In this document: piece by piece, positions 3,017 to 13,955 of the stretch | Position numbering within the stretch: the first letter of the stretch is position 1 | How the letters are laid out: each line of letters begins with the position of its first letter | NCBI GenBank assembly: GCA_016932955.1 | Contig: JAFGBV010000147.1 | Location: 1-14,009, forward strand | Origin: Anaerolineales bacterium | GTDB lineage: Bacteria > Chloroflexota > Anaerolineae > Anaerolineales > UBA4823 | Length of the DNA stretch: 14,009 nt | Direction of reading: 5' to 3' | The notes under the pieces: generated by a model | Seen by the model: only the letters and a program-made list of their open reading frames with translations | What the model was told of the DNA's origin: nothing | Database searches by the model: none | Made by a program: the position numbers and the translations under genes

Positions 3017-3472
3017 TTAAGGCTGGCCACCCTGGCCTTGCCCGTTACCGCCTGCCCAGGCAGGACGCCCCGATGCGCCGCCTGTACCTTGTCCGTTGCC
3101 TCCCTGCCCCATGCCTCCAGCCGTGACACCACCGCTGTCAATCCCAGCACCAGTTCCATTTTGCCCGCTTTGCCCGGCGCGGCGCCCACCACCCTGACCG
3201 CTGTCATATCCGATACCGTTTCCTGCGCCTTCCCCGATACATTGGCTTTGGTCAACGGGCTCCGCATCTGTCGTAACAGCCAGGGGAGCCTCCTGGTTGG
3301 CATCTGCCACGCTCGTTTCTACTGCTGCCGGGCGGGCCTGTACAGCCGAAGCCGCAGCGGGCTCTTCAACCTGTGCATTGACCTGCGGAGCCGCGCTGAC
3401 ATTGTAAATGCTGACCCCCACTGCTACCGCCACTGTAGTTACCAATATACCAATGATGATTTTCTTCAACAT
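3017..3472 (-). CDS. Secreted Gly/Gln-rich low-complexity protein
   Basis: The 151-residue product begins with a classical Sec signal peptide (MLKKIIIGILVTTVAVAVGV, cleavage probably near VSA-AP at about 27). Next comes an Ala/Val/Glu-rich section (30-75), and from about 80 on a tail dominated by Gly, Gln, Asn and Ser with loose GGNGQG/GQGG repeats. A single Cys (near 79) is present and no haem or metal motif is seen. A strong ribosome binding site, AGGAGG, stands 6 nt before the ATG at 3472. The gene is read divergently from the cytochrome bc operon, and the shared intergenic region has matching promoter architectures, so co-regulation is likely. I do not recognise a family with known function. 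It may be an extracytoplasmic or envelope protein of an actively respiring cell. The tail is low complexity, so homology searches will be uninformative there. Confidence 0.7.
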   Translation of the reverse strand: MLKKIIIGILVTTVAVAVGVSIYNVSAAPQVNAQVEEPAAASAVQARPAAVETSVADANQEAPLAVTTDAEPVDQSQCIGEGAGNGIGYDSGQGGGRRAGQSGQNGTGAGIDSGGVTAGGMGQGGNGQGTGGASGRPAWAGGNGQGQGGQP

Positions 3473-3700: not shown

Positions 3701-5098
3701 ATGCCAGTAGAGACACATTCCGATCATGAAACCCCCATCAGTCGCATGCGCCGGCGGCTGGCCCCACCCACATTTCCCAGCGATGACCGCAGTCGCATGC
3801 GCATGGTAGTGGACAGCCTGGTGCTTCACCTGCACCCAACCAAAGTACCAAAAACCACGCTGCGCTGGACATATACCTGGGGCTTGGGTGGCCTTTCCGC
3901 GCTGCTGGTCACATTGCTAGCCCTTACCGGCGTTTTCTTACAGATGAACTACACCCCCAGTCCGCCGCAGGCTTACCTGGATGTCTTGGCATTGCGCACC
4001 GATACCTGGTTCGGCGACCTGCTGCGCAACTTGCACCACTGGTCAGCGAATTTGCTCATCATCACCACAATCTTGCACTTGCTGCGCGTGTTCTTCACCG
4101 GCGCACACCGGCCCCCGCGCGAGCTCAACTGGCTGCTGGGTATCGGGATGCTGCTCCTGGTAATGGGTGCCAACTTCACCGGCTACCTGTTGCCCTGGGA
4201 CCAGTTGGCTTTCTGGGCCATCACGGTCGGCACCAGCATCCTCAGCTATATTCCCCTCATCGGCCAGCCGCTCAGCAGCTTGCTTTTAGGCGGACCAGAA
4301 GTAGGGTCAGCCACTTTACTAACCTTCTATTCGCTCCACATCAGCTTTATCCCAATCGGCATTTTAGCGCTCATGTCCTATCATTTCTGGCGCGTGCGCA
4401 AAGACGGTGGTTTGACCATCCCCAAAAGCGCTTCTGGGCGCGAACAACCCGCACCAGAACGCGTCACTACCATCCCGCACCTTGTGCGGCGCGAGCTCGT
4501 ATGGGCAGTGGCCTGGCTGGCAATCCTCTTCACCTGGTCAATGCTTGTTCCTGCTCCCCTGGAGGGGATTGCCGATCCGGCCGTCAGCCCAAACCCCGCC
4601 AAAGCGCCCTGGTATTTCCTGGGCATCCAGGAGCTGCTCCTGCACTTTCACCCGCTGGTCGGTGCTGTGATCATTCCCACATTAGGCCTGGGCGCACTGG
4701 CACTACTGCCGTTCTATGATGTGCACGTAGAGAATGTGGGGGTGTACTTCCGTTCTTATCGCGGGCGATTCATCAGCATGCTGGCAGTCGGGGGCGCGCT
4801 GCTGCTCACACCGTTGTGGGTTGTGCTGGACGAGTTTGTGCTGGATTGGGTAGCCTGGCTACCCGATTGGCCCACCCTGCTCTCCAACGGCGCCATCCCC
4901 ATGGCAGTTGTACTATTGGGGCTGATCGGCCTGGATGAAATCTTGCATCGGGCTTTTCAGACCAAAACCGAAGAACGCGTCCTGGCGCTGTTCATGTTTG
5001 TCTTTACAGCCCTGGTCATCTTAACCATCATTGGCATCTTCTTCCGCGGCCCCGGCATGGCGCTCTACTGGCCGTGGGAAATTCCATCTGCACATTAG
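3701..5098 (+). CDS. qcrB: Cytochrome b subunit of quinol:cytochrome c oxidoreductase (bc complex)
   Basis: This 465-residue integral membrane protein holds the two b haems and the quinone sites of a bc-type complex. Haem ligands are H112 and H126 in helix B (LLRNLHHWSANLLI...HLLR) and H213 and H228 in helix D. The second pair is 15 residues apart, as in b6-type proteins, not 14 as in mitochondrial b. FTGYLLPWDQ (159-168) is the classical segment after helix C. N-terminal (b6-like) and C-terminal (subunit IV-like) halves are fused in one chain. At the quinol-oxidation loop, where PEWY or PDWY is expected, the sequence is APWY (302-305), so the acidic residue is replaced by Pro. A 50-residue charged N-terminal extension precedes helix A. 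GAGAGG lies 7 nt before the ATG. First gene of a three-gene operon, with the Rieske gene 18 bp downstream. Confidence 0.95.
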   Translation: MPVETHSDHETPISRMRRRLAPPTFPSDDRSRMRMVVDSLVLHLHPTKVPKTTLRWTYTWGLGGLSALLVTLLALTGVFLQMNYTPSPPQAYLDVLALRTDTWFGDLLRNLHHWSANLLIITTILHLLRVFFTGAHRPPRELNWLLGIGMLLLVMGANFTGYLLPWDQLAFWAITVGTSILSYIPLIGQPLSSLLLGGPEVGSATLLTFYSLHISFIPIGILALMSYHFWRVRKDGGLTIPKSASGREQPAPERVTTIPHLVRRELVWAVAWLAILFTWSMLVPAPLEGIADPAVSPNPAKAPWYFLGIQELLLHFHPLVGAVIIPTLGLGALALLPFYDVHVENVGVYFRSYRGRFISMLAVGGALLLTPLWVVLDEFVLDWVAWLPDWPTLLSNGAIPMAVVLLGLIGLDEILHRAFQTKTEERVLALFMFVFTALVILTIIGIFFRGPGMALYWPWEIPSAH

Positions 5099-5116
5099 AT
5101 CAAAGAGACAAGATAC

Positions 5117-5614
5117 ATGGCATCCGAGAACCAACCTCAAAAAACAAAAATCGCACGCCGGGATTTTCTAAAGATCACCTGGGCAGCATTAGGCGGGCTG
5201 GCTGTGCTTGAAATCGGTGGCTTGGCCTTGGTCTATCTGCAGCCACGCCTTGCCGAGGGCGAGTTTGGCGGACAGCTCAACGCAGGGCGCGTCGATGATT
5301 TTCCTCCCGGCTCCGTCTCGCACATCTCCAATGGCCGATTTTACCTGGCGCGCCTGCCCGATGGCGGCTTCCTGGCGCTGTACCAGCGCTGCACGCATCT
5401 GGGTTGCAATGTTCCGTGGGATCAAGAGCAGGGCGCTTTTATCTGCCCTTGCCACAATTCACAGTTCACAACCGAAGGAGATGTGATGAACCCGCCTGCC
5501 CCGCGACCGCTGGATCTGTTCCCCATCTCGATCCAGGATGGCCAGGTGATCGTAGATACCGGGCAGCCGATCCAGCGCCAACATTTTGAATCCTCACAGG
5601 TTGTTTACGCATGA
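5117..5614 (+). CDS. qcrA: Rieske [2Fe-2S] subunit of the bc complex
   Basis: The 165-residue protein transfers electrons from quinol to cytochrome c. It starts with a twin-arginine-like segment (ARRDFLK, 13-19) and one hydrophobic helix (about 20-41) that serves as membrane anchor, as in other Rieske subunits exported by Tat. The cluster motifs are complete: CTHLGC (C92, H94, C97) and CPCH (C110, C112, H113). C92, H94, C110 and H113 should bind the cluster, and C97 and C112 form the stabilising disulfide that marks respiratory Rieske proteins as opposed to oxygenase ferredoxins. The Gly/Pro loop near NPPAPRPLDL (125-134) is present. The gene follows cytochrome b by 18 bp and its stop overlaps the cytochrome c start as ATGA, so the operon assignment is secure. 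Confidence 0.95.
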   Translation: MASENQPQKTKIARRDFLKITWAALGGLAVLEIGGLALVYLQPRLAEGEFGGQLNAGRVDDFPPGSVSHISNGRFYLARLPDGGFLALYQRCTHLGCNVPWDQEQGAFICPCHNSQFTTEGDVMNPPAPRPLDLFPISIQDGQVIVDTGQPIQRQHFESSQVVYA

Positions 5615-6984
5615 AAACCATTAAGATCGCACCCCGAACAATAGAATTAGTAGTCGGCATCCTGGCTACTGCTATGATCGTGGCGGGGGTAGCCTTGTAT
5701 GCCTGGAATGAGCCAACCCGCCTGCAAGAAGCCCAAACCCGCCAGTTAGCATCTGATCTGGATGGCGCAATGACCCTCTACGCCCAGAATTGCGCCGTCT
5801 GCCATGGTGCAGGCGGCGAGGGCATTGGTGCTACACCTGCCCTGAACAACCCCGCCCTGCAAGAGACGGATGCCGAGGCGATCACCAAGATCATTTCCCG
5901 CGGATTGTATAGCAGCGCCATGGCTGCCTGGAGCTTGGAAGATGGCGGACCGCTCAGTGAATACCAGATCAACCAACTGGTCAACCTGATCCACCATGGT
6001 GATTGGATTGAAACACAATCTCGCGTGGTCAACCTGGGCCTCGCCCCCCTCATTCCCTTCGCTTCAGAGGCCGATCCATTAATCCTGGATAACCTTACCG
6101 AACTGCCGCAAGGTGATACACTGGCCGCCGGAATCTCACTGTATGCTGAGAACTGCGTGGCCTGTCATGGCGCAGATGGCGTGGGAACCACCCTGGCCCC
6201 TGCGCTGAACGATCCCGCTGTTCGCGCACAAAACGCCGTTGATTTGGAGCGCACCATCCGCCTGGGCACCCCTGGCACGCTCATGGCTGGTTGGGAAAAA
6301 GCCCTGGATGACGAACAGATCACTGCCCTGTTGGAGTTGATGTTGCGTTGGGATGAGATCCCCACTGGCGCCATCCCCGCCCCCGATGAGCCAATCCTGG
6401 TGACCGCAGAGTCGCTGGCGCTGGGAAGCGAGCTGTACGCCGCCTCCTGCGACAACTGTCACGGCCCTGAAGGCCAGGGCAGCCAGCGCGCCCCATCCCT
6501 GAATGTTCGCTCTTACCTGGCTGAAACGCCCGATGCCGCCCTGCAGCAGATCATTACCCTGGGCGTGCCCGAAACATCCATGCCAGCCTGGGGTGACCGC
6601 CTGAGCGAAGCGCAAATCCAGGCGATTGTTGGCTTCATCCGCTCTTGGGAGCCCACTGCCCCAGAGGTAGCCCAGCCGGTGCGCGTGCGCGGCCCGTGGT
6701 GGCAAGGGAACACCGCGGCTGGCGACAGCCCGCAGTTGCCCAGCGGCGGAGCCTCTACTGCAGCCAACCCAGAAGCAGCCATTCCCGCCCCATCTGCCAC
6801 ATCTGGAGACCTTGCCAATAAACAACCTGAGGGTAACGCAGGCGGAAATTCACCTTGGGTAGCACAGGAGCTGCCCTGGTATCAGACCCTGGATCCGCGA
6901 GCAATTGTACTGGCGCTCAGCGTGATCTTCATCGCTTCGTTGATCATCCTGGCCGCGTTGCACGGGCTGCGCCGGCTGGCCTGA
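5611..6984 (+). CDS. Membrane-anchored tri-haem cytochrome c of the bc complex
   Basis: This 457-residue protein takes the place of cytochrome c1/f. It has an N-terminal signal-anchor (about 12-31) and three consecutive cytochrome c domains: CAVCH (61-65, probable axial Met104), CVACH (182-186, Met225) and CDNCH (280-284, Met324). Each follows the CxxCHG-x-x-G pattern, with a Met in an 'xxMxxW' context about 40 residues later. The three domains are similar to one another (for example YAENCVACHGADGVG and YAASCDNCHGPEGQG), indicating internal triplication. A Pro/Ala/Ser/Gly-rich linker (about 350-415) leads to a C-terminal transmembrane helix (about 430-452) with a basic end GLRRLA. It is translated from an ATGA overlap with the Rieske gene. 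Three haems could carry electrons some distance to a terminal acceptor. The stop lies 6 bp from the stop of the convergent ctaB gene, with no terminator visible. Confidence 0.92.
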   Translation: MKTIKIAPRTIELVVGILATAMIVAGVALYAWNEPTRLQEAQTRQLASDLDGAMTLYAQNCAVCHGAGGEGIGATPALNNPALQETDAEAITKIISRGLYSSAMAAWSLEDGGPLSEYQINQLVNLIHHGDWIETQSRVVNLGLAPLIPFASEADPLILDNLTELPQGDTLAAGISLYAENCVACHGADGVGTTLAPALNDPAVRAQNAVDLERTIRLGTPGTLMAGWEKALDDEQITALLELMLRWDEIPTGAIPAPDEPILVTAESLALGSELYAASCDNCHGPEGQGSQRAPSLNVRSYLAETPDAALQQIITLGVPETSMPAWGDRLSEAQIQAIVGFIRSWEPTAPEVAQPVRVRGPWWQGNTAAGDSPQLPSGGASTAANPEAAIPAPSATSGDLANKQPEGNAGGNSPWVAQELPWYQTLDPRAIVLALSVIFIASLIILAALHGLRRLA

Positions 6985-6990
6985 TAATCG

Positions 6991-7845
6991 CTAGATCATC
7001 ATCAACAGCATTGAGGCCAGCATATAGACCGAAGCATACTTGAACAATCCAAAGTTGATCCGTTCCGAAGGACGTAAAACCATACCGATCGCCAGTACCA
7101 GCAAGCCAGCAGACAGAACCCCTAGCACGCGCAGAAAGCTCCATTCCATGCCGATGCCCCAGGCTGCCAGGCCCATTGCAAGCGCAGCCAGCACGCTCGA
7201 TATAGCGATCGTTGCCCTGGTAAAGGCCAATCCATAAGTAGAAGGGAAAGTAGGCACACTTGCAGCCTGGTAATCATCATAATAGCGCATACTAAAAGTC
7301 AAGATGTGGGTTGGGATCCAGAACAGGACGCCCAGAGAGAGCAGCACCCCTACCCAATCCACGCCGCCCACGCCCAGCACACGCCCAGCCAGGATGGGCA
7401 TGCCGCCCGAAATACCCCCCCACACAATGCTCCAACACGTGCGCCGCTTGAGCCAGATCGAGTAAACAACGACATCGAAGAACAACCCCGCAAAGATGAC
7501 CAGGCCATACAGAACATCCATCGCAAGTGCCAATCCCACACCCACTGCAGAGAGCCCCAGCCCCACTCGCAAAGCCTCTGCAGGATCTACCTTGCCACAT
7601 GCCAGCGGACGCTTTTTTGTCCGCCCCATTCGTGCATCGATATCGCGATCCCACCACATGTTGAGTATGGTGCTGCCGCTGACCGAGGCCACCAGGCTGA
7701 CCAATAACCCCGCCATGGTGGGTAAGTTAAACACTGGGCAGCGGGCGCTCATGTAACCCGCCAGGCCAGTGGATACAAGCAAGCCAGTTTGCAGGCTTTT
7801 GATGAGCGGCCAATAGAGCGTAAATTTAGCAAGCACCGTTTTCAT
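6991..7845 (-). CDS. ctaB: Haem O synthase (protohaem IX farnesyltransferase, UbiA superfamily)
   Basis: The 284-residue, multi-helix membrane enzyme adds a farnesyl group to protohaem to make haem O, needed by o- and a-type haem proteins. The first Asp-rich prenyl-diphosphate motif is NMWWDRDIDARMGRTKKRPL (62-81), the signature of haem O synthases. The second is YYDDYQAASVP (188-198). KRRTCWSIVWGGISGGMP (133-150) matches the haem O synthase stretch between them. Length is slightly short but complete. AGGAG stands 7 nt before the ATG. It is the last gene of the minus-strand run, 62 bp after the FGE-like lipoprotein gene. No haem A synthase (ctaA) is in the window. Its place beside a putative haem-binding membrane complex suggests it supplies haem O to that complex; this is inference. 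Confidence 0.88.
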   Translation of the reverse strand: MKTVLAKFTLYWPLIKSLQTGLLVSTGLAGYMSARCPVFNLPTMAGLLVSLVASVSGSTILNMWWDRDIDARMGRTKKRPLACGKVDPAEALRVGLGLSAVGVGLALAMDVLYGLVIFAGLFFDVVVYSIWLKRRTCWSIVWGGISGGMPILAGRVLGVGGVDWVGVLLSLGVLFWIPTHILTFSMRYYDDYQAASVPTFPSTYGLAFTRATIAISSVLAALAMGLAAWGIGMEWSFLRVLGVLSAGLLVLAIGMVLRPSERINFGLFKYASVYMLASMLLMMI

Positions 7846-7907: not shown

Positions 7908-8804
7908 TCAGGGATCGCGGGCGCAGCGAAATCCCACACCAGGACTGAAGTAGGTTGGCGTGGCGTTATTGCGTACCCATGCCCTCAAATCCATCTCGTA
8001 GGTATCCTTCGATCCGCCGCACATGAGGCGGTAATGCATGCCTTCGTACACATCACCAGTCCACTGCCATACATTGCCCGCCATGTCATACAACCCATAG
8101 GGCGAGGCAGAGTCTAATGTGGCATACCCATCATAAGTCGCGCCATTATAGAAACCCACCGGCGTGGTGCGCGAGCCAAAGGAGCTCATATCCTCAAATG
8201 GATCCCGGCTGGCATAGAAGTTGGCGTTTTCACGCAAGATATCATCCCCCCAGGGGAAGGGACGGGCATCTGTACCACGCCCGGCTTTTTCCCACTCCAC
8301 CTCGCTTGGTAGGCGCCAACCATTGTATTCACAGTAGCCCCGCGCCCCAAACCAGCTCACCATCGTCATCGGGTGGTTCTCATACCCTTGTTGAGGAGTG
8401 AATGCATTCCCGTCAAACTGGATACGCTGCGATGGATCATCCAGGGGGATGAATATCCAATCCCCGGCCTCAATCGGCTCCTCGTGCTTCACACCGCGGA
8501 ATACGTCTCCGGGATAGTAGCCTACAATCTGTTCCCCATCCAACTTCACATAACCATCTGCCAGCGCCTGGTTAAGGAAGGCCGCATATTGGGCCGTAGT
8601 GACATGGGTTACCATGATCTCGTAGGCACCCGTCGTCTCAACCGCTTCGTGCTGACCATAGTAGAATTCCCCAGCCGGAATTTCCACCCAGGCGTTCGGG
8701 TCCACACCCGTATCGAAAACGGGCAATTCTGCGTTCAGATCCACCGGTGCGCAGGCAGCCAGCAAAACAGTAAGCAGGATCATGGCGGGAAGAATACGCT
8801 TCAT
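7908..8804 (-). CDS. FGE-sulfatase-fold (SUMF1/NirV-like) lipoprotein
   Basis: This 298-residue protein has a lipoprotein signal peptide with lipobox LLAAC (C18), so it should be anchored on the outer face of the membrane. Residues 40-297 form one formylglycine-generating-enzyme-like domain: WVEIPAGEFYYG at its start, TTAQYAAFLN, NHPMTMVSWFGARGYCEYNG, WRLPSEVEWEKAGRG, FPWGDD, DMAGNVWQWTGD and the closing GVGFRCARD. In true formylglycine-generating enzymes two catalytic cysteines follow the GGS motif. Here the segment after MCGGS (KDTYEMDLRAWVRNNATP) has none, so sulfatase activation is unlikely. Related non-catalytic or copper-associated paralogues such as NirV occur next to nitrite-reductase and other redox genes. 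A strong AGGAGG is 7 nt before the ATG. It sits between the 474-aa membrane protein (50 bp upstream) and ctaB; an assembly or binding role there is inference. Confidence 0.82.
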   Translation of the reverse strand: MKRILPAMILLTVLLAACAPVDLNAELPVFDTGVDPNAWVEIPAGEFYYGQHEAVETTGAYEIMVTHVTTAQYAAFLNQALADGYVKLDGEQIVGYYPGDVFRGVKHEEPIEAGDWIFIPLDDPSQRIQFDGNAFTPQQGYENHPMTMVSWFGARGYCEYNGWRLPSEVEWEKAGRGTDARPFPWGDDILRENANFYASRDPFEDMSSFGSRTTPVGFYNGATYDGYATLDSASPYGLYDMAGNVWQWTGDVYEGMHYRLMCGGSKDTYEMDLRAWVRNNATPTYFSPGVGFRCARDP

Positions 8805-8854: not shown

Positions 8855-10279
8855 TTATTGTTTGAACAGATCAACCAGCCTCCAAACCATCACAATCGCC
8901 AATAAAAGTAGCAACATTGCCAAACCAAAATCCATCGTGTACATCAACGCATTGACCAGCGGTTGCTGTTCTGCTTCGTCGATGAACAAGCGCTTCATCT
9001 CAAAGATCGTCACTGCCCCAAAGGCAATATCCGAGAGGATGATAACCCCCCAACCATACCATTGGCGCAGTCTGCCCTTGAAGCCAAGTATATCGCCATA
9101 GTAAAGCAGAATGATGGTGGCTACAATCGCCGAAAGCACGTGCCAGTGACCGGTCAGCTCGATGCGCTCCTCGCGCGCCGGCCAAACACGGAAGATTTCC
9201 TCCAGCCGGATCGCCATGAAGATGCCCAGGCCGCTGGTAGTGAAATTCATAAAGAGCATCTGCCAGGTTGGGCCAAATTTAAGCGGATCGCGCAGCAGGG
9301 CGCTGATTTTTTGACCGAAGTTGGGCTTTTGGATGTGTGCCGTGCCATCTCGCATCTGCTTAGCCCAGCTCCAGATGAGCAGGAGCAGCGCCGCTACCAT
9401 CGAGGGCGTAGCCCCTACGTAGATAACCATATGCGCAATCGGTTCCAGGGGAGTTGCCACACCCCAAACACCCAGGTTTAACACAATGGTGCCTAAGATC
9501 ATCAGTGGCATCGCGATCTTGTGCAACACGCCCCTGAAGTTCAGCCAGCGGCCGATAATCAACGTGATCATAATGGAAATCAAGGCCAGCATGATGTGCA
9601 GGTGGCCGATGATAGAAAACTGCATGGTTGTCTTCTCAGGATAACGGATGACGTTTTCCGCCAGGAATACATCAAACCCATTCCCGAAGAACGAACCCGG
9701 TACAGCCCCAAACAAGGCGGAGATCACTGTGGTCAGTGCAGTCGAGAAGAAAGCCACCCGTTCCACATCCACACCTGACCGGGTGCGGGCGTAGTCCTTG
9801 TCCATTTGGTAGTATTCCTTGTTCCACGGCCACAGGGCAATCACCAACAGCACACCCCCAAAGAACATAAGCGAAAGCCCGGCAATATACACCCCATGAA
9901 AGGCCCAGTTATGGCCAAAATAGGCAAAGCTCAGGCCAAAGACCATGGTTGCAATATAACCCACCGTGATGATGGCCCGGACTGCCACCTTGAAGAAGGT
10001 CTTCATCGCTAGCAGGCTGGTGACCATGTAAACCTCGATCGCAATCACGGCCATGGCAATCGAGTGATACAGGATGATAATGCGCCCTTCGCGTTCGGCC
10101 TGCACCATATCCATACCCAGCAGCTTAACCACCACCTCGCGCACACCCCATTCAGCCATCGGCCCCGAGAGCATGCCCCATACAGCCGTGACCATGGCGA
10201 TCATGGCAATCGCCACCAGGATCAAGCCTTTGGTTGAGCTGAACAGGTAGTTAAAGCGGTTTTTAACGAAATGCAGCAT
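8855..10279 (-). CDS. Twelve-helix membrane protein with GHxH motifs, haem-copper-oxidase-like
   Basis: The 474-residue product has about 12 hydrophobic helices. Histidines fall in helix 2 (H72, ILYHSIAMA), helix 6 (H226/H228, SIIGHLHIMLAL) and helix 10 (H378/H380, ELTGHWHVLSAI), 152-154 residues apart. Others lie at the end of helix 3 (H123, H128 in FGHNWAFHG) and at the start of helix 8 (H283). The helix-10 motif resembles the HFHYVLS helix X of haem-copper oxidases, and helices II, VI and X are the pseudo-threefold equivalents in that fold. The HH pair of helix VII, which binds CuB, is missing, so a canonical O2- or NO-reducing site is doubtful. The segments after H228 and H380 are alike (long helix, G-x-x-L-x-F-x-G, second helix). 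I chose the ATG at 10279 because AGGAAGGAGAAGG stands 4 nt before it. It follows the 263-aa gene by 28 bp. Haem binding is inferred, the family not established. Confidence 0.6.
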   Translation of the reverse strand: MLHFVKNRFNYLFSSTKGLILVAIAMIAMVTAVWGMLSGPMAEWGVREVVVKLLGMDMVQAEREGRIIILYHSIAMAVIAIEVYMVTSLLAMKTFFKVAVRAIITVGYIATMVFGLSFAYFGHNWAFHGVYIAGLSLMFFGGVLLVIALWPWNKEYYQMDKDYARTRSGVDVERVAFFSTALTTVISALFGAVPGSFFGNGFDVFLAENVIRYPEKTTMQFSIIGHLHIMLALISIMITLIIGRWLNFRGVLHKIAMPLMILGTIVLNLGVWGVATPLEPIAHMVIYVGATPSMVAALLLLIWSWAKQMRDGTAHIQKPNFGQKISALLRDPLKFGPTWQMLFMNFTTSGLGIFMAIRLEEIFRVWPAREERIELTGHWHVLSAIVATIILLYYGDILGFKGRLRQWYGWGVIILSDIAFGAVTIFEMKRLFIDEAEQQPLVNALMYTMDFGLAMLLLLLAIVMVWRLVDLFKQ

Positions 10280-10307: not shown

Positions 10308-11099
10308 CTACTTTGGCCCACTCCAGGCAGCAATCACTTTACGCGTGAAGGGCAACAGCAGAAATATAAACAAGCCCGTGCTCATGACTGGCGCAGCCAG
10401 GAACATAGAAAAACGCCCCTGGATGATTACATCTGTTATGCCCACCGGAAACCCGCCAAACATCGACATCGCCGCTGCAAATACACCCACGGGCATAGCC
10501 CAGGGCTTTGCTTTGACCAGCGCAAAGATAAACACAGCCCAGGCTGCAGCCCCCCACCAGTTGACCATCTGCGACATTGCATACATCGAGCTAATGAAGC
10601 CCTCAGCTTCGGTCTGGTGGCGCGAGATAGCTCCCACGCCATCGATAAATGTCAGCACATAGGCCAGCCCACTGATAAAAGCAATGGCAATGATTTTCCT
10701 TTCAATACCGCCAATCAGGAGCATTCCAAACCACAATACAAATGCAATCAGGAAAACCCAGATCGTCGGCGTAGGTAATCCAATGCTGGATGGCGGAATG
10801 ATAGGGAAGAAACCTGCCAGGATCTGAATGGTGGCGGCCACCGTTCCCCAAAACCAGGCCCAATTGGCCTTGGTCAAAAAGCCGTATAGCACCATCACCC
10901 ACAAGGCCCCGGCAGAAACACCCCACCAGGCAAGTATAGCAAAGACAATGCGTACGGTAATGGCCTCATCAGGGCGCTCCCCGGCCATTTTTCCATCGAT
11001 ATTCACTTGGTATATGCTGGCCATCAACAACAGCACCGCCAGGCCTACTCCAATCCCTATCACGGCCAGCAACGCCCCTAATTTGTGATTGTTTTTCAT
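10308..11099 (-). CDS. Unrecognised integral membrane protein (about eight helices)
   Basis: I do not recognise this 263-residue protein. It has about eight hydrophobic segments (roughly 7-29, 48-73, 79-100, 110-131, 134-155, 170-186, 190-210 and 221-241). A polar stretch holds the only internal His (ISRHQTEAEG, near 160), and another polar loop (QVNIDGKMAGERPDEA, 31-46) lies between helices 1 and 2. Trp-rich helix ends (WWGVSAGALW, WAWFWG, WWGAAAW) are prominent. There are no Cys and no obvious haem, iron or nucleotide motif. AAGGAG is 8 nt before the ATG at 11099, which is better than a GTG 9 nt upstream. It lies between the 287-aa and 474-aa membrane proteins, so a structural or quinone-facing subunit of one complex is a reasonable guess. 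Confidence 0.65.
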   Translation of the reverse strand: MKNNHKLGALLAVIGIGVGLAVLLLMASIYQVNIDGKMAGERPDEAITVRIVFAILAWWGVSAGALWVMVLYGFLTKANWAWFWGTVAATIQILAGFFPIIPPSSIGLPTPTIWVFLIAFVLWFGMLLIGGIERKIIAIAFISGLAYVLTFIDGVGAISRHQTEAEGFISSMYAMSQMVNWWGAAAWAVFIFALVKAKPWAMPVGVFAAAMSMFGGFPVGITDVIIQGRFSMFLAAPVMSTGLFIFLLLPFTRKVIAAWSGPK

Positions 11100-11120
11100 G
11101 CGTCTCACTCCTTATGTCAC

Positions 11121-11188: not shown

Positions 11189-12052
11189 TCACACTTGGCT
11201 CTCCTTGACCAGCGTTTCATTCTCACCTACCAGCAGGTGTTTCTTGAAGAAAGGTGCCAGCGTGAAGAACAATACGCCAATCGCAAGCAGCGCGCCATAC
11301 AGGTAATCGAGTGTCTTGGTGCGGACGAACTGCGTGGGAACATTGATCGCCAGGATTGCGATCGCCGCGATCACAGCCAGCCACCAACCCTTGCGTTTGC
11401 CAACTGCCAGCAAGGGGATCGACAGGAATAACAGAATAACCGCCACCCAGTTCACCTCGCCTACCCAGTTGAACATCCACCAGGATAGATCTTTGTAGAA
11501 GGGATAGTCCGGACGCGTCATCATGGTGCGTTGGGCGCCAATACCAATTGTGAAAGCATGTGTGGATAACATGCCGATAAAGGTCAATGCGCCAAAACGC
11601 GCCCATTTTTGAGCCATGCTAGCCTTACGCAGAAAAATATAGCTGAAGTAACCGATCAGCCCGATCAAGGAGATCAGCATCGGCAGCGGGAAACCATCCA
11701 CCCAGCTAACGTAGGGGAGGAACATGAACATCCCACCAATGGCAGGCAGCGCAAACAAAGCCATGCTTAATGGATAAGTCCACTCGCTGCCTTTCCTGAT
11801 TTCCAACGAGATCACCATCAACGCAATACCAGCCACAAAAATCACTGCTCGCCAGATTGGGTAAAACAGATCAAAAAGTGGTATGCCGCTGGCAAAGGTC
11901 GGGTTGCCAGCTTTTACATGCTCATCTAACCCATGCAAAACTCGATCCAGCGATGTTTGTGTCAGGAAGGGAACCACAGCCGCCATCAGCAAGCCAATCA
12001 ATATAGCAATGACAAACATAATGTTGCGGTTCACTTGAGCAGTATCTTTCAT
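11189..12052 (-). CDS. Unrecognised integral membrane protein (about eight helices)
   Basis: This 287-residue protein has no family I can name. It shows about eight hydrophobic segments (near 9-30, 66-84, 93-114, 122-141, 151-172, 199-217, 222-238 and 249-269). A long polar loop of about 35 residues after helix 1 (TSLDRVLHGLDEHVKAGNPT, 34-53) is probably extracytoplasmic. One His (H165, MLSTHAFTIG) is inside helix 5. A second conserved-looking loop, RTMMTRPDYPFYKDLSWW (175-192), is followed by W-rich residues. The C-terminus is polar and cytoplasmic. I chose the ATG at 12052 because GGAGG lies 5 nt before it; the ATG at 12073 has no site. It follows the CopD-like gene by 29 bp and precedes the 263-aa gene. 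Its size and topology suit an accessory subunit of a membrane redox complex, but nothing proves this. Confidence 0.65.
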   Translation of the reverse strand: MKDTAQVNRNIMFVIAILIGLLMAAVVPFLTQTSLDRVLHGLDEHVKAGNPTFASGIPLFDLFYPIWRAVIFVAGIALMVISLEIRKGSEWTYPLSMALFALPAIGGMFMFLPYVSWVDGFPLPMLISLIGLIGYFSYIFLRKASMAQKWARFGALTFIGMLSTHAFTIGIGAQRTMMTRPDYPFYKDLSWWMFNWVGEVNWVAVILLFLSIPLLAVGKRKGWWLAVIAAIAILAINVPTQFVRTKTLDYLYGALLAIGVLFFTLAPFFKKHLLVGENETLVKESQV

Positions 12053-12081
12053 TTTCTCCTCCATATTATTCATTTTATCGT

Positions 12082-12573
12082 TTAAACGTGTAACGGACTG
12101 TTCAATGCAGCCACCAACCCACTGAGTAACAAAACCAGAATCACCAATGCGGCGTTCGCCAACAGCAGCCTCAAATTCAAGCGTTCTTTTGCCGGCGTCA
12201 TCCCCTCCGAACTTCGTCCCAGCACCAGGGCACGATACAACGTGATCGCAATCATACCAATCACCAGGATATGCTTAAGCGATAGCGCCGCCGAATACAG
12301 GTTACCAAACCCAAACAGGTGTTCATAATCCGGGCTTCGGTGCGTCATCACCAGGCCAGTCACGATCAACCCCACCATGCTGGCATACACCCAAACGCTT
12401 TGTCGCTTCTGGAAAGCCGCCATCACTTTCTTGACCTGCAAGCCAGGACCTAGCGCGTCTTTGACGGCTGGCAAAAAGCTCATCACCGTGACGAGCAGCC
12501 CGCCCATCCAGACCACAGTGAACAAATCATGAAAGAACGACATAAGTGCAAAGACAATGATTTTTATATTCAT
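12082..12573 (-). CDS. CopD-like four-helix membrane protein
   Basis: The 163-residue protein has four hydrophobic helices (about 5-33, 59-76, 97-118, 135-157). Helix 1 reads FFHDLFTVVWMGGLL (H15) and helix 3 begins LSLKHILVIGMIAITLYRAL (H101). These match the two hallmark segments of the CopD/PcoD family (PF05425): a His near the start of a helix with WxGG, and a K-H/L-x-x-x pattern two helices on. H78 and H85 lie in the loop THRSPDYEH. CopD proteins are linked to copper or haem-b handling in the membrane. This one is shorter than CopD proper and resembles stand-alone paralogues. The start overlaps the BON gene stop (ATGA), with GAGG 7 nt before it, so the two are translationally coupled. 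It may help supply metal or haem to the proteins encoded downstream. Confidence 0.6.
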   Translation of the reverse strand: MNIKIIVFALMSFFHDLFTVVWMGGLLVTVMSFLPAVKDALGPGLQVKKVMAAFQKRQSVWVYASMVGLIVTGLVMTHRSPDYEHLFGFGNLYSAALSLKHILVIGMIAITLYRALVLGRSSEGMTPAKERLNLRLLLANAALVILVLLLSGLVAALNSPLHV

Positions 12574-12869
12574 TCAGTTTCCTCAAATCTGTAATCGCTC
12601 AGGTTTAGATTGACTGTCCGTGCCGGGCTGGGTGCTCCGGGGGCTTCAATGCGGTTCACAACCCCGCGTACGCCAGCCACACCTTGAGCAATTTCTTCTG
12701 CCGCGGCGCGCCCGGTCAGTGTATCTACCCTGCCTGCCAGGTGAGCAATGCCATTCAGCACGCCTACCCGCAGTTCACTTTTGGCAGTGCGTTCATCAAC
12801 CAACAATTGGGCCAGAATAGCGGCCCGCAAACTTTCATCTGGGAGGGGTGCAGAAATTCTCATCGGCAT
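12570..12869 (-). CDS. BON-domain protein
   Basis: This 99-residue protein is a single BON domain (residues about 13-77): LRAAILAQLLVDERT, then a V-x-V-x-x-G-x-x-x-L-x-G-x-V strand pair (LRVGVLNGIAHLAGRVDTL), and AAAEEIAQGVAGVRGVVNRIE. No signal peptide is seen, so it is probably cytoplasmic, unlike OsmY. BON domains bind membranes or ligands and often act as small regulatory or attachment modules. The ATG at 12869 has GGATGAAG before it; a second ATG two codons in is equally usable. It is the first gene after the 238-bp regulatory gap and is coupled to the CopD-like gene, so it likely opens the operon. Its role in the cluster is not evident from sequence. Confidence 0.78.
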   Translation of the reverse strand: MPMRISAPLPDESLRAAILAQLLVDERTAKSELRVGVLNGIAHLAGRVDTLTGRAAAEEIAQGVAGVRGVVNRIEAPGAPSPARTVNLNLSDYRFEETE

Positions 12870-13107: not shown

Positions 13108-13794
13108 TCACCGGTCAGCGCGCTCTGCCAGACCCTTTGGGTTGAGGATTATAATGCTTCGCTTCTCCACCCTGAGAAGATTCTCGGTTTCAAGTGTTTT
13201 CATCGCCCGGCCGAGAACATCGCGCACCGTTCCCAGGCGCACAGCCATTTGGTCAAAAGTTGCCCAATCGCGGCGTGGGACAATCAATTGCCCATCGCGA
13301 AGTTCTGCATGATATAAGAGCGTACGCGCCAGTCGTGATTCTACACTCCGCAGAGAAAGATCTTCGACGAGATTGAGGTAGTAAAGCACGCGCTCGCCGA
13401 GATGGCGGATGACGGACAGCGCGAATGCAGGCTGGCTTTGGATGAGCTCAAGAACGGTATGCGCTGGAATGACCCACACGGATACGTCTTCGAGCGCTGT
13501 CACAGTACCCGGATAGGGCACGCCTGTCAGCACAGCAATATCGCCAAATATTTCAACGGGGCGCAGAAACATCATAGCCTGCTCGCGGCCACCTCGTGTC
13601 ATGCGCGTGGCTTTGACCCAGCCCAATTCTAAAAGGTAAATTGACTCAGCAGGCTCACCTTCCACATAGATCACCTGACCGCTTTGATAATAGCGAAGTA
13701 CCGCTACCGCCGCAAGCGCTTGCTGCGTTTCTGCTAACAGATCATTCAAGCGCGGCACACACTGCAAGGTTTTCTTGAATCGGGCAATATCCAT
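13108..13794 (-). CDS. Crp/Fnr-family transcriptional regulator
   Basis: This 228-residue protein has the standard layout: a cyclic-nucleotide-binding-like beta-roll (about 30-115; GQVIYVEGEPAESIYLLELG, VEIFGDIAVLTGVPYPGTV), a dimer helix (120-145) and a C-terminal winged helix with the recognition region DQMAVRLGTVRDVLGRAMKT (181-200). The FGDIAV...PYPGTVTA loop stands where Crp binds cAMP. The only Cys is C12, so there is no FNR-type iron-sulfur cluster. I prefer the ATG at 13794, where homology to the family begins, although its ribosome binding site is weak. The frame stays open to an ATG at 13929, and those extra 45 residues look non-coding. The gene precedes the BON-to-ctaB run on the same strand, and local control of it is likely. 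The effector cannot be told. Confidence 0.88.
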   Translation of the reverse strand: MDIARFKKTLQCVPRLNDLLAETQQALAAVAVLRYYQSGQVIYVEGEPAESIYLLELGWVKATRMTRGGREQAMMFLRPVEIFGDIAVLTGVPYPGTVTALEDVSVWVIPAHTVLELIQSQPAFALSVIRHLGERVLYYLNLVEDLSLRSVESRLARTLLYHAELRDGQLIVPRRDWATFDQMAVRLGTVRDVLGRAMKTLETENLLRVEKRSIIILNPKGLAERADR

Positions 13795-13955
13795 CAATGT
13801 AAGCCTGCTACCATAGCTATCATACCACAGGCGCCACTGATCTCCCGACACGGTTGGCCCTTTCTCGCCAGCGCAATACTTGGCGCACCGGTGCCAGATC
13901 TCACCTTGCCACGAAAATAAATGGTTCATTGGGAGTTGCCGTTACAGAGGGCAGG

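Follow-up and report, generated by a model that had tools for sequence, protein, structure and literature searches.

Aerobic respiration, like most known reduction of nitric oxide (NO), is built on the heme-copper oxidase (HCO) fold, whose members are usually identified with a single profile. Catalytic sites of oxidases can contain heme O, cbb3 uses heme b, and NnrS is a membrane protein with twelve helices that contains heme and copper and is linked to NO. In AxqNOR, PMC6713497 gives His486, His537 and His538 as FeB ligands, with Glu490 nearby. The general puzzle behind NirS without a recognised NO reductase in Chloroflexota is set out in PMC8756737, which also describes eNOR genes of Chloroflexi that are close enough to cytochrome c oxidase to be mislabelled as such and that carry a cupredoxin subunit. 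Here we analyse a 14,009-nucleotide stretch of an Anaerolineales bacterium (contig JAFGBV010000147.1 of assembly GCA_016932955.1; hereafter the window) and the protein encoded by a 474-codon open reading frame (ORF) on its minus strand (ATG at 10279, stop at 8855); the plus strand of 8855..10279 is interrupted by stops. This protein appears to be the subunit-I-like core of an undescribed HCO-fold branch with an altered ligand set.

The AlphaFold 2 (AF2) model of the window protein has twelve long helices, the number counted in the original prediction, and structure comparison gives it the pseudo-threefold fold of HCO subunit I, with its helices collinear with those of HCOs rather than a fold unrelated to them. 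The protein ends at residue 474 without the KGRWTEE-like C-terminal tail (∼17 residues) that all 22 remaining sequences of alignment A1 have, and most relatives have 491 residues. In a search of 5.8 billion proteins, 3,232 of the 8,000 scored were homologues at E ≤ 1e-3. The 120 listed homologues are unnamed or 'hypothetical' and all lack Pfam domains; those with an organism name belong to Anaerolineales or other Chloroflexi. A genome scan across species gave 266 stretches that encode relatives, the best 80 of which (61–87% identity; hereafter the 80 loci) carry Chloroflexota names except for two labelled Neomarinimicrobiota. Family members occur in 13 of 301 and 17 of 400 Chloroflexota genomes (overlapping samples), including the isolate Thermanaerothrix daxensis GNS-1 (L065). 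A distant subfamily B is present in two of the 301 genomes (G199 and G019), and searches seeded with it returned at least 365 and at least 649 homologues. No prior description of the family was found in a literature search that mostly did not reach subscription journals. The family is real, large and unrecognised, with a predicted HCO fold and an altered ligand set. With more than 3,000 homologous protein clusters, it is missed by the usual profile although it has the predicted fold, its own CyoE and seven invariant histidines, and it would show the HCO fold in wider use than databases record.

Conservation was assessed in an alignment of 367 rows, i.e. 286 database proteins and 81 ORFs from the 80 loci; these sets are not disjoint, and the window protein itself is among the rows. 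Identity is at least 50% in 201 rows and lower in 166, with a minimum of 36%. Seven histidines (H72, H128, H226, H228, H283, H378 and H380) are His wherever a row has a residue, that is, in 365 rows at H72 and in 366 at each of the other six; the missing residues belong to one partial protein and to a gene that is split into two ORFs. By contrast, H123 and H253 are variable. The six histidines named in the original prediction, as well as the spacings of 154 and 152 residues, are correct in the ORF translation, and all six are invariant, which chance does not explain; H128 in helix IV, equally invariant, had been overlooked. L70 is Leu in 363 of 365 rows, and Y71, Y108, Y120, R66, R174, D331, E371 and R372 are nearly or completely invariant. 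The helix VI motif reads GHLH, in agreement with the predicted GHxH, and its two histidines face opposite sides of the helix. The residue at +4 is Met after H226 (365 of 366 rows) and Ala or Thr after H228 (355 of 366), neither Tyr nor Glu. In helix X, GHWH (377–380) corresponds to the HCO HxH motif to which it had been likened. The CuB-type HH pair is indeed missing, as no HH dipeptide occurs anywhere in the window protein or in columns 276–299 of any of the 367 rows, and the single invariant H283, at the start of helix VIII, occupies the equivalent region.

These features set the family apart from the closest described systems. (i) Unlike cbb3 CcoN (C-type HCO), it has no HH pair, but helix IV carries an extra His and helix VI a second one; genes for CcoO/CcoP-like cytochromes do not recur next to it, and it is paired with CyoE. 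(ii) Compared with NorB and qNOR, it has one His in the HH region and no Glu at +4, so that the three-His FeB site with a nearby Glu of cNOR and qNOR is not found. (iii) In contrast to A- and B-type oxygen reductases, it is missed by the COX1 profile, has an altered ligand set and has no recurring CuA gene. (iv) With respect to NnrS, no Pfam family matches the window protein at E 1, and we take Pfam-A to include an NnrS model. (v) It resembles eNOR of Chloroflexi in its phylum and in its occurrence in genomes with NirS, yet, going by the description of eNOR in PMC8756737, it has neither the closeness to cytochrome c oxidase nor the cupredoxin subunit. Because both the HH pair and the COX1 signature are missing, the family is kept out of the heme-copper oxidases proper as a class.

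We then considered how the seven histidines may be arranged. Helices VI–IX align with helices X–XII (Prob 95%, score 50.4, 86 columns), compared with a mean score of 15.2 (SD, standard deviation, 3.6; maximum 28.5) for 60 block-shuffled controls and 12.3 for the reversed control; with GHxH masked, Prob is still 82.6%. The II–V segment aligns weakly with the other two (Prob 0.2 and 2.7). The internal repeat is not unique to the family, because a mixed HCO set shows a weaker VI/X repeat (Prob 31–72); single-type HCO subsets, which are shallow (6, 2 and 2 sequences), show none. Such a strong repeat bears on the origin of the pseudo-threefold fold. It pairs H226 with H378 and H228 with H380, while the weak II–V alignments and an equal 20-residue spacing place H72 with H228 and H380, and H128 with H283. 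The spacing is that from H72, H228 and H380 alike to a basic loop (M92/K93, F248/R249 and F400/K401), which by the positive-inside rule would put these three histidines in the outer half of the membrane. H228 is likely the counterpart of the helix VI CuB His, because the repeat alignment of cbb3 (L105; one of five HCO references) pairs that His with the second His of helix X. Since first-type and second-type histidines of a threefold-symmetric fold face opposite neighbouring gaps, the seven would form two pseudo-equivalent three-His sets plus H380: {H378, H228, H283} between helices X and VI, and {H226, H72, H128} between VI and II; H380 would point to the former low-spin site.

Our preferred explanation, which we regard as fairly probable as a whole, is an HCO-fold branch with heme O from CyoE, a reduced metal site, a second His set, a quinol donor and reduction of NO or O2. 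The window protein would bind a prenylated heme (heme O) from the CyoE encoded two genes downstream and would keep the usual HxH of helix X (H378 and H380). At the metal site opposite the H378 heme, only two of three histidines would be left, H228 (helix VI) and H283 (helix VIII), and the second pseudo-symmetric set (H226, H72 and H128) would lie in the pore between helices VI and II. Quinol is the probable electron donor, because no cytochrome c or CuA subunit gene recurs beside the gene in the 80 loci. The SUMF1 lipoprotein encoded between the two genes is probably outside the membrane, as an accessory subunit. The substrate would be a small oxidant, reduced or detoxified, with NO as first candidate and oxygen as second.

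One alternative is the plain HCO layout with a variant dinuclear site, in which the low-spin heme would sit between H72 and H380 and the high-spin heme on H378, while H226, H228 and H283 would make up a three-His metal site. The collinear helices of the HCO fold and the invariance of the histidines in helices II, VI, VIII and X agree with this layout, and among the segment profiles the best score goes to the collinear pairing of II–V with HCO II–V (Prob up to 36%), against 12–27%, in four of five references, for the shifted pairing of VI–IX with HCO X–XII. Helix II argues the other way in the A- and B-type rows. When the end-pairs of the VIA alignment are carried ungapped down this helix, L70, not H72, falls at the ligand position in the bovine, ba3 and Paracoccus rows, paired with His72 of ba3 and with what we take to be H61 of the bovine enzyme and H94 of Paracoccus. 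The P. stutzeri cbb3 row, if read ungapped, disagrees with this register and gives no support to a two-residue shift, as its ligand, presumably H60, falls at residue 75; the qNOR rows, with an assumed offset, also look inconsistent with L70. In the bovine, ba3, Paracoccus, cbb3 and AxqNOR rows the VIA alignment ends one residue out of register at helix X. The proposal that H72 is the helix II ligand of the low-spin heme is therefore doubtful: H72 is invariant, but the A- and B-type rows, taken with the equal spacing and the weak internal-repeat alignments, suggest that it is probably not that ligand, and the cbb3 row disagrees with them. The equal 20 residues to the helix end from H72, H228 and H380, the opposite orientation of H226 and H228, and the lack of a role for H128 also disfavour the plain layout, which we consider doubtful.

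Alternatively, the window protein may be a heme O protein with the cofactor positions of the HCO fold turned by one third, giving two equivalent three-His centres in place of the classical pair of sites, filling the VI–II pore and giving up the low-spin II–X site. The idea of a rotation comes from the best global hhalign alignment (L096, Prob 11%), which is offset by one pseudo-repeat; the next (L109, Prob 4.8%) is collinear and pairs H378 and H380 with the HCO HxH. Because the segment profiles return both registers, they leave the choice between the plain and rotated layouts undecided. To our knowledge, known HCOs leave the VI–II pore unoccupied; a literature search on HCO pore naming returned unrelated papers only. 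If true, this rather unlikely arrangement would supply the missing NO-handling enzyme of NirS-bearing Chloroflexota without a recognised NO reductase.

A non-catalytic heme protein, acting in sensing or electron transfer with both of its hemes bis-His ligated and no site left open, is unlikely. If the repeat register is right, the X–VI and VI–II gaps each hold a first-type and second-type His pair, the geometry of the HCO low-spin heme, and the lack of a canonical CuB set, with Met and Ala/Thr rather than Tyr or Glu at +4, would suit such a protein. However, H283 and H128 would be idle though invariant, and a dedicated CyoE suggests an HCO-like enzyme.

The pairing with CyoE is the best argument for heme O in the window protein. 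The gene order in the window is the HCO-fold gene, the SUMF1 lipoprotein gene and then CyoE, which scores 207.7 bits with TIGR01473 (cut-off 210.3) and whose consensus keeps NxxxDxxxD, which we take to be the prenyltransferase motif. CyoE is downstream in 72 loci and 7.4 kb upstream in L031; five of the seven loci without it end <1 kb from the gene. CyoE adjoins the gene in 23 of 26 family-positive genomes. Four of these 26 genomes (G002, G003, G079 and G371) have no COX1-family match, and their only strong CyoE match is the one adjoining an HCO-fold gene. Of 14 genomes searched (G371 was outside this set), 5 lack heme A synthase, including G002, G003 and G079; these three have cytochrome bd. 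Because the sole strong CyoE adjoins the gene in COX1-less genomes, heme O is very probably the cofactor of the window protein, and the pairing suggests that a low-spin and a high-spin heme may be bound. G371 counts for less, because its gene copy, which is outside the 367-row alignment, lacks helices VIII–XII as assembled, hence H283, H378 and H380, and its CyoE match has an internal stop (TAG); the argument therefore leans on G002, G003 and G079. In the G371 copy (L140:5492-6475), helix VII runs straight into the C-terminal tail, by deletion or assembly error. That CyoE serves another protein, with the conserved order reflecting co-regulation only, would fit its absence beside the gene in the subfamily B genomes (G199 and G019) and in G054, and the second, higher-scoring CyoE of many family-positive genomes. 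The four COX1-less genomes make this explanation improbable.

Several comparisons weigh against membership in the HCO superfamily. Foldseek gave no match at E ≤ 1e-3 (best 1.3e-2), a Pfam scan of the window protein found no family at E 1, COX1 (PF00115) included, and the COX1 profile matched neither L094 nor L095 at E 5. NCBIfam, phmmer against the PDB and the family profile against the PDB gave no significant link to HCOs. Whole-protein hhalign against a 12-sequence HCO set reached Prob 0.2–11%, and segment profiles at most 36%. Convergence, i.e. an unrelated helical bundle that superposes by chance, would account for these missing matches but is very improbable: of the two options first offered, a divergent or non-canonical member fits the predicted fold and invariant histidines better than a convergent protein.

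The possible function was considered through genome content. Full-length NirS (PF02239 >400 bits, leaving a broken match in G266 uncounted) is present in 10 of 400 Chloroflexota genomes, 6 of which are among the 17 with the family (Fisher p 4.3e-7, kinship ignored). It is also present in 4 of 11 further family-positive genomes (G079 and G371 were already among the 400), i.e. in 10 of 26 overall. The operon of G013 shares one neighbourhood with NirS (∼10 kb away), a NapH-like ferredoxin protein and three Crp homologues. T. daxensis (G001), G004 and G006 combine NirS with only one COX1 match each, which by eye is A-type; the genome paper of T. daxensis (PMC4653793) includes NirS in its listing but no NO reductase. 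Because the family is enriched with NirS, NO metabolism is the likeliest role, and from this genome association we tentatively propose it as a possible one. Several observations count against it: the enrichment lacks a correction for phylogeny, NirS is in none of the 80 loci, the four COX1-less genomes have no full-length NirS, and G111 and G223 have NirS and one COX1 match without the family, so that the link to NO is not strict. Reduction of O2 is unlikely to be the role, as is sensing or electron transfer. The window protein is probably an unstudied heme enzyme of Chloroflexota, and the family is a testable candidate for the NO-reductase gap in some of those with NirS.

Two further proteins occur in the G013 neighbourhood. 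A multi-helix protein of 392–393 residues without a Pfam match (L138:17074-18249 and L022:1002-2180, with an HVH motif in the L022 copy) adjoins NirS and is also present in 6 of the 80 loci. A lipoprotein with two tandem similar domains (L138:9540-11066), weakly FmdE-like (22.3 bits, cut-off 22.9), is also present in L015 and L073.

Features of the window and positions of the invariant His codons; locus counts refer to the 80 loci.
Feature	Position	Strand	Basis or occurrence
HCO-fold protein, 474 aa, predicted 12 helices	8855..10279	-	ORF and AF2 model
H72 codon (helix II)	10064..10066	-	computed from ORF start; invariant
H128 codon (helix IV)	9896..9898	-	computed from ORF start; invariant
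H226 codon (helix VI, first His of GHLH)	9602..9604	-	computed from ORF start; invariant
H228 codon (helix VI, second His of GHLH)	9596..9598	-	computed from ORF start; invariant
H283 codon (helix VIII start, HCO HH region)	9431..9433	-	computed from ORF start; invariant
H378 codon (helix X, first His of GHWH)	9146..9148	-	computed from ORF start; invariant
H380 codon (helix X, second His of GHWH)	9140..9142	-	computed from ORF start; invariant
SUMF1/FGE-like-domain lipoprotein	7908..8804	-	Pfam PF03781; homologue in 76/80 loci
CyoE-type heme O synthase (UbiA family)	6991..7845	-	Pfam PF01040; homologue in 73/80 loci
266-aa membrane protein, upstream	10308..11108	-	28-base gap; relatives in 47/80 loci
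294-aa membrane protein, optional neighbour	11189..12073	-	11/80 loci
CopD-like membrane protein, optional neighbour	12082..12573	-	10/80 loci
BON-domain protein, optional neighbour	12570..12869	-	17/80 loci
Crp/Fnr-type regulator	13108..13929	-	homologue somewhere in 53/80 loci
bc-type complex operon: cytochrome b, Rieske, triheme cytochrome c	3701-6984	+	convergent with CyoE gene

Among the neighbouring genes, the SUMF1 protein was ruled out as a formylglycine-generating enzyme (FGE), because its consensus, with Cys only at 18, 158 and 294, lacks what we take to be the catalytic FGE Cys-pair motif. Proteins with CxxCH lie <5 kb from the HCO-fold gene on the same strand in 5 of the 80 loci, and on either strand in 8. 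The bc-type operon, whose cytochrome b reaches 273.6 bits with ExtP (cut-off 290), was not counted in the system; only a homologue of its triheme cytochrome recurs, in 1 of 80 loci. Clustering of neighbours gave a 203-aa membrane protein family in 57 loci and a 232-aa one in 44. Two paralogous 203-aa proteins (L038:9316-9924 and L045:13434-14042), one usually upstream of the operon and the other downstream, share one invariant His (H123, in an HG(V/I)AG motif).

Elsewhere in the window, a SARP/BTAD-type regulator at 241-731 is spread over two frames that overlap (241-447 and 408-731), as a frameshift or truncation would leave it, and only the second matches BTAD. In a 151-aa exported-looking protein (3017-3472, minus strand), which has no Pfam match, the second half is rich in Gly, Gln and Asn. 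A COX1-family protein encoded near members of both subfamilies (L017:4373-6438 and L106:1393-3018) apparently has a GLD motif in place of the helix VI His, and in L017 a short possible subunit II accompanies it. Finally, paired proteins of ∼140 residues (L113:1483-1899, L116:1453-1899 and relatives in L015) match parts of the COX1 profile, much as one repeat module of the HCO fold would; G054, G351 and G407 have short paired matches of a similar kind.
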